From: Patescibacteria group bacterium
GTDB taxonomy: Bacteria > Patescibacteriota > WWE3 > 0-14-0-20-40-13
Length of the DNA: 49,283 bases
Direction: 5' to 3'
Assembly: GCA_018896215.1 (NCBI GenBank)
Contig: JAHINB010000016.1
Span: 1 to 49,283 of the forward strand
Each line of letters starts with the position of its first letter. Position 1 is the stretch's first letter. The notes beneath the pieces were generated by a model. The model saw nothing but the letters and a program-made list of their open reading frames with translations, did not search any database and was not told where the DNA came from. The position numbers and the translations under genes are program-made. Positions 6,094 through 47,562 of this stretch are shown here, piece by piece.

Positions 6094-7896
6094 TTAGGTC
6101 TTTTTTTGTAATTTGTAGATATCTGCAAGCTCTTTTAAACTTGTGGCATCAAGCGGTGATTTATCTTCCCGATACTCTATAAGCCTTGGAAACCTCATAG
6201 CGTAACCTGCAGTGTGCAAGGGTGAAACGGTGATATTGTCCGCCCGCACCACTACTACCATTTTAGGCGCGACAAAGACATCGCAAAATAGCTCTTTGGG
6301 AATAGCCACATTTTTGGGAACCTCCGCCACTTTTATGGCATCGCATTTTTCCTTTAGTTCCACCCATTGCTCATCAGTTAAACCGGTTCCAATTTTAGAG
6401 ACTGTTTTAAAGCTGTCGGTACTACTATCATAAACCCCAATTAAAAACGCCCCAATGCCAAACACGGTTCTTTTGCCGGCGCCAAAATAGTACCCCAAAA
6501 CCACGGCGTCTATGGTATCTTCCAACCCCCCGGTTTCTTCTCTTTTAAATTTAATCCAAGCAAACCCCCTGTTCCCTACCGCATATTTAGCATTAGGGTT
6601 CTTTATTACGACCCCCTCTAGCCCACGAGACACAGCGTTTTCAAAAACTTTGAGCAACTGGTTGGAATTAGATATATTGGCTCGATTGGCTAGTTGAATT
6701 TTTTCCGTTGGGGAAAGAATGCTTCTTAAAATTTCCCATCTTTCATGTAGGGGTTTATCAATGAGGCTTTCGCCATTTAAATACAAAAGATCAAAAACCC
6801 GCAAAGTTAAAGGAATATCCAAGGCGTTTTGCGCCACCTGGTGCTTGCGCTTGCGTTTGATAGTTTGTTGAAAGGGAATAAAATCGCCAGTTTTGACATT
6901 GTACCCAATTGCCTCGGCATCCAAAATAGCATTTTCTGCTTTAACATTAGCTAAAACTGCCTCTACCAGATCGGGAAATTGGTAAGTTGACTCCTCCAAA
7001 TTACGAGTGAAAGTCCAGACTCTTCCGGAATTAAGGTGAATTTGCACCCTTGTTCCATCATATTTATCCTCCGCAACAGCCTGTTCTCCAATTTTATCCA
7101 TGGCTTCCTCGGCTGTGGCCACTCGGGCGCATTTTGCCACCAGAACTGGCACGCCAACTTCCAAATCCACTTTTTTAAGTCCTGCAATTCCATTTTCTTT
7201 AATAACTTTTGCCAAAAAACCAATATCCGGATGAATTCGGTAGCGAGATTCTATTTTTGCTTTAAGGCTTTTATCCCCTGCTAAATACCACGAAAGCGCC
7301 TCAATCACCGTAATATCCGAAAACCCCAAACGCATGGTTCCCAAAATTATCCGTACCACAAATTTGTTTGATATGGGGTCCAATTGATTTAAAAGACTGG
7401 CAATTTTGGTCAGCTTTCTTTCCTGTGATCCTTCCCCATTCTCAAGAGCTATTTCTTTTAACTTCTCGTAAACTGGAGATACTAAAAGTGAGGAGTCGTG
7501 CACTTTGGAAAGACTCTGTGCAACAATTCCTAAATCCCCAACCTTGTTGGCATAATCAACAACATCAACAAATGGTTTATAACAAGATTTAGAGGATACC
7601 TCTTCCGATAAATTTCCCCGACCGTGTGTCGGGGGCGTTTCATATTCCAACCGCGTTTTACGCGGGGGGAATATATTAAACGCTAACGAAATTGCCCGCA
7701 ACATTAATTTTTGTGCTACGCTAAATTGCGTGGATCTAAAGGGCGGGGTTAAGTAGCCTAAAGAGAGGTACATTGCAACATCTACCTCGTCGGGTGATAA
7801 GTCTTTGACGAGACTCGCCAGAATTGCAGTCATTTCCAAGCGTTTGGGCGTGGATTCAATTTGTTGAAAATATTTGGAGAGTTCGCTAAATGTCAT
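6094..7896 (-). CDS. lig: ATP-dependent DNA ligase (archaeal/eukaryal type)
   Basis: The 600-residue ligase has an N-terminal DNA-binding domain (about 1-240), an adenylation domain with motif I KYDGTR (adenylated Lys278) and later motifs including GVVIKNPNAKYAVG and AWIKFK, then an OB-fold domain containing a KTVSKIGTGLTDEQW stretch. It seals nicks in DNA with ATP. Most bacteria rely on the NAD-dependent LigA, so this family in a CPR genome suggests exchange with archaea or a repair role; LigA may be elsewhere. Residues about 75-107 look like an insertion in the DNA-binding domain and are encoded by palindromic DNA that recurs near 47.5 kb (see repeat). A TGATATAAT promoter ends 7 nt before the ATG. 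Confidence 0.93.
   Translation of the reverse strand: MTFSELSKYFQQIESTPKRLEMTAILASLVKDLSPDEVDVAMYLSLGYLTPPFRSTQFSVAQKLMLRAISLAFNIFPPRKTRLEYETPPTHGRGNLSEEVSSKSCYKPFVDVVDYANKVGDLGIVAQSLSKVHDSSLLVSPVYEKLKEIALENGEGSQERKLTKIASLLNQLDPISNKFVVRIILGTMRLGFSDITVIEALSWYLAGDKSLKAKIESRYRIHPDIGFLAKVIKENGIAGLKKVDLEVGVPVLVAKCARVATAEEAMDKIGEQAVAEDKYDGTRVQIHLNSGRVWTFTRNLEESTYQFPDLVEAVLANVKAENAILDAEAIGYNVKTGDFIPFQQTIKRKRKHQVAQNALDIPLTLRVFDLLYLNGESLIDKPLHERWEILRSILSPTEKIQLANRANISNSNQLLKVFENAVSRGLEGVVIKNPNAKYAVGNRGFAWIKFKREETGGLEDTIDAVVLGYYFGAGKRTVFGIGAFLIGVYDSSTDSFKTVSKIGTGLTDEQWVELKEKCDAIKVAEVPKNVAIPKELFCDVFVAPKMVVVVRADNITVSPLHTAGYAMRFPRLIEYREDKSPLDATSLKELADIYKLQKKT
7576..7641. repeat. Palindromic repeat element inside the ligase gene
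   Basis: Bases 7576-7641 align with 47482-47541: shared blocks are ttataacaagattta (15 of 15), aatttccccga (11 of 11) and tcgggggcgtt (11 of 11). A ccccga/tcgggg hairpin lies at the right end. In this copy the element is translated in frame, adding roughly SEEVSSKSCYK and upstream residues. A second hairpin (ccgcg/cgcgg within an aatat...atatt palindrome, about 7643-7676) adjoins it, so the whole insert of about 100 bp may be composite. Confidence 0.7.
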
Positions 7897-23555: not shown

Positions 23556-23587
23556 TAGGGATTATCCCAAATTTGGGATAATCCCTA
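23556..23587. repeat. Perfect 32-bp palindrome, left of the RAYT gene
   Basis: tagggattatcccaaa is followed directly by its exact reverse complement. It touches the 3' end of the RAYT gene and is identical to 24262-24293 on its other side. Confidence 0.92.
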
Positions 23588-23589
23588 AT

Positions 23590-24243
23590 TTATGTCTCCA
23601 GTAAAACACTCGTTCCTAAATACTCCAAGCTTTCCTTTGGAGATTTAAGATAATCCAATACAAAACTTTTATAATCGGAGGTGTTCGATAATACAACTGA
23701 TGGATATAACCAGCTTCTTTTGGTTTCTCCAAGATAATCCGATATGCTCGAATAAGCATATTTAAGAACATCCGTTTCTGCTCCTAGCTTTAAAGGATTT
23801 ATGTGAATATATCTGGACAAGTGTTTTAATTGATCTTCGTTACGCACTAGAACCGCCTTGTATGTACTCTCAAAAACATGTCCATCTTTACCCCTAGTTG
23901 TATTAAAGTAAGTAGAATAGTTGGATAAAATCCTTCGCGTGAGATGCGATATTCCCATAATCTCTTTATTGTGCAAAAGCAGGTGGAAGTGATTTGGCAT
24001 GAGGCAATATGCAACGAGTCCAACCTCGTCAGCAACAGAGTTAGGAGAAAAATAATCCATCAACTTAGTTACTTTATTAAATCGAGGTTCTTTAAAGTCT
24101 TTCTGCAAATATTTCTTAAGATTGTAGAGAAAAATCGCGTAATCATCCGAAGTTTCAAAAATATCTTGGTGGAAAATTCCTCTACTATAAATATGGTAGT
24201 AACTACCCTCTTGATACTTTTTTAGAATATTCTTTCTGGGCAT
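23590..24243 (-). CDS. REP-associated tyrosine transposase (RAYT, IS200-like Y1 family)
   Basis: The 217-residue protein has the Y1 transposase/HUH pattern: YYHIYSRGIFHQDIF near the N-terminus, VAYCLMPNHFHLLLH (HUH motif HFH), a GHVFESTYKAVLV segment and the helix RYIHINPLKLG. The catalytic Tyr is probably in this last region or in YSSISDYLG. RAYTs mobilise or maintain short palindromic repeats. Two identical perfect palindromes flank the gene within 3 and 19 bp, an arrangement typical of a RAYT with its REP sites. The frame is intact. Confidence 0.92.
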   Translation of the reverse strand: MPRKNILKKYQEGSYYHIYSRGIFHQDIFETSDDYAIFLYNLKKYLQKDFKEPRFNKVTKLMDYFSPNSVADEVGLVAYCLMPNHFHLLLHNKEIMGISHLTRRILSNYSTYFNTTRGKDGHVFESTYKAVLVRNEDQLKHLSRYIHINPLKLGAETDVLKYAYSSISDYLGETKRSWLYPSVVLSNTSDYKSFVLDYLKSPKESLEYLGTSVLLET

Positions 24244-24261
24244 ATTCGACTAGGACTCGAT

Positions 24262-24293
24262 TAGGGATTATCCCAAATTTGGGATAATCCCTA
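24262..24293. repeat. Perfect 32-bp palindrome, right of the RAYT gene
   Basis: This is an exact copy of 23556-23587, lying 19 bp upstream of the RAYT start codon. Being a palindrome it has no orientation; it could be a substrate site or an operator. Confidence 0.92.
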
Positions 24294-36255: not shown

Positions 36256-36293
36256 GCGGGTACTACCCGATTCGGGTACTACCCGATAATTTG
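36256..36293. repeat. REP-like double palindrome, copy A
   Basis: Two consecutive 13-bp palindromes, cgggtactacccg, 16 bp apart, lie within a 38-bp block. Its reverse complement matches 44572-44609 at 37 of 38 positions. It lies between the GH1 remnant and the end of virB4. The rest of 36161-36363 is AT-rich without recognisable features. Confidence 0.88.
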
Positions 36294-44334: not shown

Positions 44335-44628
44335 GGGTTAAGTATAACAAATTTAAAATCTTCACGGTTTTGGGGTCATAACCATAAAAAACTGGTAAAA
44401 ATTAGCGATTTTTCACGATTACATAAGTTCTTCCACCTCCGTCGCATAAAACGCGATTCGAAAAAAGTGGAAGAATTCTGGGTTGATAAACCAATATTTT
44501 TGGGTCTCACCACATTTTTTTCCTGTTGTAACAACATTTAAGACAGTAATGAGAATACCTTGACCTAACAGCAAATTATCGGGTACTACCCGAATCGGGT
44601 AGTACCCGCTTTTACCGATTTTAACGAA
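44335..44628. other. Intergenic region with promoter and REP-like palindrome
   Basis: It holds the minus-strand TATACT at 44346-44341, 6 nt before the SpoIID-like start, and the REP-like palindrome at 44572-44609. The AT-rich remainder (44350-44570) shows no gene or RNA that I recognise. Confidence 0.5.
44572..44609. repeat. REP-like double palindrome, copy B (inverted)
   Basis: This is the inverted copy of 36256-36293. Here the two units form one larger perfect hairpin, cgggtactacccga/tcgggtagtacccg around a single A. It lies 20 bp from the end of the UvrD-like gene. Confidence 0.88.
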
Positions 44629-47466: not shown

Positions 47467-47472
47467 ACCTAT

Positions 47473-47562
47473 ATGCCTAAATTTATAACAAGATTTAAGA
47501 AGACTTCCTATTAATTTCCCCGATGAATATCGGGGGCGTTACACATTTATGCCTAAATTTAT
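47473..47562. repeat. Palindromic repeat element with 14-bp direct flanks
   Basis: atgcctaaatttat occurs at 47473-47486 and again at 47549-47562, bracketing a sequence of about 62 bp that matches the element inside the ligase gene (7576-7641). The hairpin ccccga/tcgggg is at 47518-47536. The flanks look like a target-site duplication, and the right copy now holds the start codon of the following gene. Confidence 0.75.

Follow-up and report, generated by a model that had tools for sequence, protein, structure and literature searches.

In-frame copies of a structured and probably mobile miniature element in genes of a WWE3 (Katanobacteria-like) bacterium

Examination of the 49,283-nucleotide contig JAHINB010000016.1 (GenBank assembly GCA_018896215.1, a Patescibacteria group bacterium of the WWE3 lineage; the whole stretch is called the window below) revealed an in-frame insert in its ATP-dependent DNA ligase gene. 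This insert is very probably a copy of a non-autonomous interspersed miniature element which, among the genomes searched, is restricted to one WWE3/Katanobacteria-like family, and which is best classified as a new, lineage-restricted, structured miniature element resembling the Rickettsia palindromic elements (RPEs). The window is contig 16 of the source genome (G000; 772 kb, 97% complete), and one other genome of the same family, from a sister genus (G001), was searched. An earlier note on the window had proposed a palindromic mobile element translated in frame within the ligase; the observation is confirmed and that interpretation largely holds.

The ligase gene (positions 6094 to 7896, minus strand) codes for a 600-amino acid protein matching Pfam DNA_ligase_A_N, DNA_ligase_A_M and DNA_ligase_A_C above cut-off. 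Its best PDB relative is 2hiv, and its relatives in named records come from a WWE3 (Katanobacteria) genome (50% identity) and a TM6 genome (40%). The insert, 96 bases at 7576 to 7671 on the minus strand, lies inside the DNA-binding domain, leaves the 600-amino acid open reading frame (ORF) intact and corresponds to residues 76 to 107 (FPPRKTRLEYETPPTHGRGNLSEEVSSKSCYK); the limits first given for it, 7576 to 7680, were correct within a few bases. In the alignment, 29 distinct ligase homologues can be read at the site, and every one of them has a gap in place of the insert. An AlphaFold2 model of the ligase is otherwise confident (mean predicted local distance difference test score, pLDDT, of 86), with values below 50 over most of residues 78 to 104, a loop which the model puts between two DNA-binding-domain helices.

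The element is dispersed through the genome. Three blocks of the ligase insert recur exactly, as the earlier note had stated, in an intergenic repeat of the window (TTATAACAAGATTTA at 7577 and 47483, AATTTCCCCGA at 7611 and 47513, TCGGGGGCGTT at 7629 and 47530), and the window has two occurrences of the hairpin pattern TTCCCCGA-N-TCGGGGG, with none expected from 100 shuffles. Genome-wide, a BLASTN search with the insert retrieved the copy at 47482 to 47547 (E=1.3e-8) as well as stronger matches of 88% over 76 bases (E=3e-22) and 86% over 72 bases (E=4e-18). The 15-base block has 10 exact copies, and 36 when up to two mismatches are allowed, versus 14 for a reversed-pattern control. A covariance model was built from 13 copies, and the copy counts rest on searches with it: 20 copies in G000 (44 to 80 bits), 10 in G001 at E<=0.01, and none at E<=0.001 in 43 further genomes of the class, a lone weak match in genome G026 (E=0.05) not being credible. 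The core of the ligase copy (7577 to 7647, minus strand), which is a member of the training set of the model, scores 76.0 bits (E=3.7e-12), and the second window copy, located between divergent genes (47483 to 47548, minus strand), 78.6 bits (E=1.1e-12). The length of the element is roughly 65 to 130 bases, with full-length copies of about 130 and cores of 61 to 96. No flanking gene common to copies of G000 and G001 was seen, and this difference in neighbours points to movement after the divergence of the two genera.

Two unrelated genes of G000 also harbor the element in frame. The ligase protein used as query matched two unrelated ORFs over the insert region alone, the first encoding a tRNA-dihydrouridine synthase (Pfam Dus) and the second a membrane protein resembling LA_3751-type glycosyltransferases, with a score under the family cut-off. 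The insert DNA is 86 to 88% identical to these two copies and 79% identical to the intergenic one. The element peptides of the three hosts, YETPPTHGRGNLSEEVSSKSCYK, YETPPTLGRGNLSEDFSKSCYK and YVTPPTQGRGNLSEEISHKSCYK, use a common reading frame, and the 26-amino acid element peptide is present in exactly three long ORFs, of 616, 466 and 353 amino acids from stop to stop. A diverged copy starts in the same frame in a 195-amino acid zinc-ribbon-like ORF of G001; this ORF has no Pfam match, and the fourth host gene is therefore less certain. When six frames were checked, the frame used by the coding copies was open in 9 of 29 copies and the next frame of the same sense in none of the 29. The coding copies do not form a distinct subfamily; they resemble some intergenic copies as closely as they resemble one another.

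Empty sites in the other hosts likewise reveal recent gain. The insert is missing from alignments of 16 Dus homologues and of 24 glycosyltransferase homologues, one of the latter having a long unrelated loop, and the glycosyltransferase of G001 shows 61% identity on either side of the insertion site, nearly continuous across it. The predicted structure of the Dus protein contains a low-confidence segment (274 to 297) within an otherwise confident model, and no NCBIfam model matched the insert peptides.

The two observations that, by the earlier note, would refute it were looked for and not made: the insert is absent from the ligase homologues, and its blocks recur across the genome. The term palindromic proved too simple for a multi-helix structure with covarying helices. 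In coding sense, the core is composed of the 5' strand of a closing helix P1 (consensus TATAAC), GC, a hairpin P3, a linker which may hold a further hairpin (hp1), TAAATCTT, and the 3' strand of P1 (GTTATA). About two thirds of the copies have, by our reading of the folds, an additional 5' hairpin (hpA) of nearly free sequence. P1 and P3 are kept by covariation. Of the 168 cells of P1, 163 are paired; reshuffling of partners gives a mean of 152.7 and a maximum of 161 (5000 shuffles, in a test that ignores relatedness among copies), the best slid register gives 108, and the compensatory types are TAAC/GTTA, TTAC/GTAA and CTAC/GTAG. The sequence of P3 is very variable and always paired (207 Watson-Crick pairs, 6 G.U, no A.C and 1 other), a rate which is optimistic because the hairpin was picked by a best-stem search. 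P1 has 33 G.U cells versus 1 A.C cell, an excess indicating that it is the coding-sense strand that folds, as RNA or as single-stranded DNA. In the ligase copy, all on the minus strand, folding of the coding strand places hpA at 7642 to 7674 (ATATTCC(CC)CCGCG..CGCGG(TT)GGAATAT) and P3 at 7616 to 7634 (CCCCGAC-ACACG-GTCGGGG). Covariation over 28 copies pairs the 3' strand of its P1 (GTTATA, 7578 to 7583) with the 5' strand at 7637 to 7642 (TGAAAC), with one A.A mismatch. In the second window copy P3 lies at 47518 to 47535 on the minus strand (CCCCGAT-ATTC-ATCGGGG). Two tRNAs were the sole Rfam matches in the window, and a full-length element copy scored far under every gathering cut-off.

Intergenic copies are mostly oriented towards gene starts. 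The downstream gene is co-directional with the element in 22 of 25 such copies (one-sided binomial/sign test, P=8e-5) and in 15 of 17 when its start lies within about 200 bases, as counted by us from mechanical ORF calls. The last bases of P1 (CTTGTTATGA) form the start codon of genes which we read from their ORF sequences as enolase, topoisomerase I and ribosomal protein L24 (the latter in G001), and of another G001 gene, and the start codon of L27, named in the same way, lies a few bases past P1. Scans for an intrinsic terminator or a sigma-70 promoter at the intergenic window copy gave results no better than shuffles, and an extended -10 reading of CTTGTTATAAT is unsuited to copies with ATG inside that motif.

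The strongest competing explanation, which we nevertheless hold to be somewhat improbable, is that the element acts first and foremost in cis as an RNA, forming a 5'-leader or intercistronic structure whose P1 contains or adjoins the start codon, and that it spread through its usefulness at gene starts, the coding copies being by-products. The co-directional downstream genes, the start codons at the 3' strand of P1 in four genes and near it in L27, the covarying helices and the wobbles favoring the transcript sense all agree with such a role. However, no common theme unites the host genes, Rfam has no matching family, closely related members of the class do without the element, the orientation bias could equally reflect purging or the way in which the element inserts, and G.T wobbles also fit a folded single DNA strand. 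A combined proposal is more doubtful still: a mobile, covarying, multi-helix, RNA-forming element would settle preferentially at gene starts, where the P1 overlapping the start codon would tune expression, and would also donate in-frame peptide loops. If this were true, a single element would act at the RNA and protein level in Patescibacteria.

Under the preferred explanation, that of an interspersed miniature element, the ligase gene would have received a copy through movement of the element as a unit, and this copy would now be translated as a flexible surface loop, surviving there through its open frame, its length divisible by three and its landing in a DNA-binding-domain loop. Mobility would most likely be provided in trans by a host enzyme recognising the folded coding-sense strand, either as single-stranded DNA for an enzyme of Y1/HUH type or as RNA; this is the least certain part of the proposal. 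The second window copy is bordered by a 15-base direct repeat, TATGCCTAAATTTAT, at 47472 to 47486 and 47548 to 47562 (plus strand), the second of which includes the codon (47549) at which the ORF on its right starts. The longest repeat found by chance among 812 mismatched flank pairs has 10 bases, and the 15-base repeat suggests an insertion footprint. A TA/TATA target duplication was rejected: flanking TATA is common, yet it pairs within hpA and P1 and so may be part of the element.

Several observations weigh against a mobile and translated element. No mobile partner or mobilising enzyme was identified, no terminal inverted repeat beyond the 6-bp P1 was found, the other 28 copies analysed show no flank duplication above chance, and a single mismatch breaks P1 in the ligase and Dus copies. 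The empty sites are known from proteins and not from the DNA of close relatives, and the exact ends of the element are not fixed. In addition, since the inserts have no counterpart in any homologue, low model confidence over them is in part to be expected, and it is from the open frame alone that the insert is predicted to be translated.

Movement as an element of the type of repetitive extragenic palindromes (REPs) or bacterial interspersed mosaic elements (BIMEs), by one of the REP-associated Y1 tyrosine transposases (RAYTs) of the genome, is unlikely. RAYT-type enzymes work by strand-specific hairpin recognition. The element likewise combines a hairpin with strand asymmetry, G000 has four Y1_Tnp genes, one of them in the window, where the REP_Tyr_transpos profile matches under its cut-off (E=2.7e-15), and in G001 a RAYT gene is located some 290 bases away from one weak copy. 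Against this, the palindromes flanking the four Y1 genes differ from gene to gene, and the element flanks none of these genes, so that the obvious candidate mobilisers have other partners. The element is also longer than REP/BIME sequences and multi-helical, and nearly all copies have AACGC before P3 instead of the GTAG or CGTC tags which mark the foot of the hairpin in described REP super-families (PMC3733652).

That the insert escapes translation, either spliced out of the mRNA like an intron or jumped over by the ribosome like a bypass element, is highly improbable. A structured element within a conserved enzyme would fit this, but excision or bypass needs neither an open frame nor a length that is a multiple of three. 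All four coding copies are nonetheless in frame, in a frame open in just 9 of 29 copies, and no intron family matched in the window. Finally, an ordinary lineage-specific ligase loop unrelated to mobile DNA, in favor of which a few homologues have 3 to 10 extra residues at the site, is to be counted as refuted by the DNA identity of the insert to copies in two unrelated genes and to the intergenic copy.

In-frame protein-coding palindromes are known mainly from the Rickettsiales, where both a selfish nature and a role in supplying new protein segments are under debate. The RPEs, reportedly described by Ogata in 2000 and 2002, are, grouped with the Wolbachia palindromic elements, the closest known system. 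Like the present element, they are small interspersed hairpins found in intergenic regions and in conserved genes, in the same frame across genes (reviewed in PMC10969869 and PMC2229807). The likeness drawn in the earlier note stands as an analogy of recurrent in-frame insertion and not as kinship, the RPE1 profile TIGR01045 having no match in the genome at E<=1 (other RPE families were not tried singly). RPEs have a terminal inverted repeat of about 12 bp and measure 105 to 146 bp, whereas the element has a 6-bp P1 closing further, covarying hairpins; nearly half of RPE copies are in genes (PMC10969869), compared with 3 of 20 here; and their hosts are Alphaproteobacteria and not Patescibacteria.

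The enterobacterial repetitive intergenic consensus (ERIC) sequences, or intergenic repeat units (IRU), are also structured intergenic elements, of about 127 bp, with some intragenic in-frame copies, and are reported to be co-transcribed with orientation-dependent effects (PMC2229807). They differ in sequence and fold and in their reported terminal inverted repeat and TA duplication, against one 15-base flank repeat in the element. Miniature inverted-repeat transposable elements are similarly short, dispersed and non-autonomous, but for the element no long terminal inverted repeats were found, and the sequence stretches inspected, with part of the transposase families searched, showed neither a parent insertion sequence (IS) nor IS ends resembling it. 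In-frame fusions are also made by other bacterial miniature elements (PMC2229807), so elements of this kind have precedents. What is new is the phylum, together with the sequence family, the form with its several covarying helices, and the start-codon placement. The open-access literature gave no paper linking such elements to the candidate phyla radiation (CPR), Patescibacteria or Katanobacteria, in line with the earlier remark that none was known to be described for CPR bacteria. A second, unrelated case in a deeply separate phylum with reduced genomes suggests a recurrent outcome and not a peculiarity of Rickettsia. Moreover, the covarying helices and strand asymmetry offer a testable handle on what movement recognises, an open point for RPEs.

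Other routes of spread were rejected. Retro-mobility by the genome's own reverse transcriptase agrees poorly with the single such gene of G000 and none found in G001, which has the element. An integron attC site would require AAC/GTT cores, which are not conserved (GTAAC/GTTAC variants). Spread via known phages or viral contigs was discarded, as the element peptide has no match in phages and the exact 22-base element motif none in IMG/VR.

Some further observations were made in G000. The enolase gene (contig 4, about 23,762) contains a hairpin-forming stretch, IPPAQNASRIEAGK, with 91% identity over 22 bases to hpA of the ligase copy, possibly the remnant of an in-frame insertion of the 5' hairpin alone. 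On contig 8 (21562 to 21688), between an S1-like gene and a 687-amino acid ORF, two element copies form an exact tandem with a 65-base unit. On contig 20 (20.8 to 27.6 kb), two paralogous F420-ligase-like genes are interspersed with three copies, a fragmentary rve-type integrase and what may be a transposase. The reverse transcriptase gene (locus L188, 1291 to 3310; contig 10, about 20 kb) is accompanied by a 131-base repeat pair of 90% identity, as in a diversity-generating retroelement. In the window, the REP-type tyrosine transposase (217 amino acids; 23590 to 24243, minus strand) lies between two copies of a perfect palindrome, GGGATTATCCCAAATTTGGGATAATCCC (23558 to 24291), and with the three other Y1 genes and their different palindromes there are four transposase-palindrome pairs in 772 kb. 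Short palindromes of another sequence, GGGTAGTACCC, with no transposase seen adjoining, are present in the window at 36258 to 36284 and 44581 to 44607, and also beside two element copies on contig 8.
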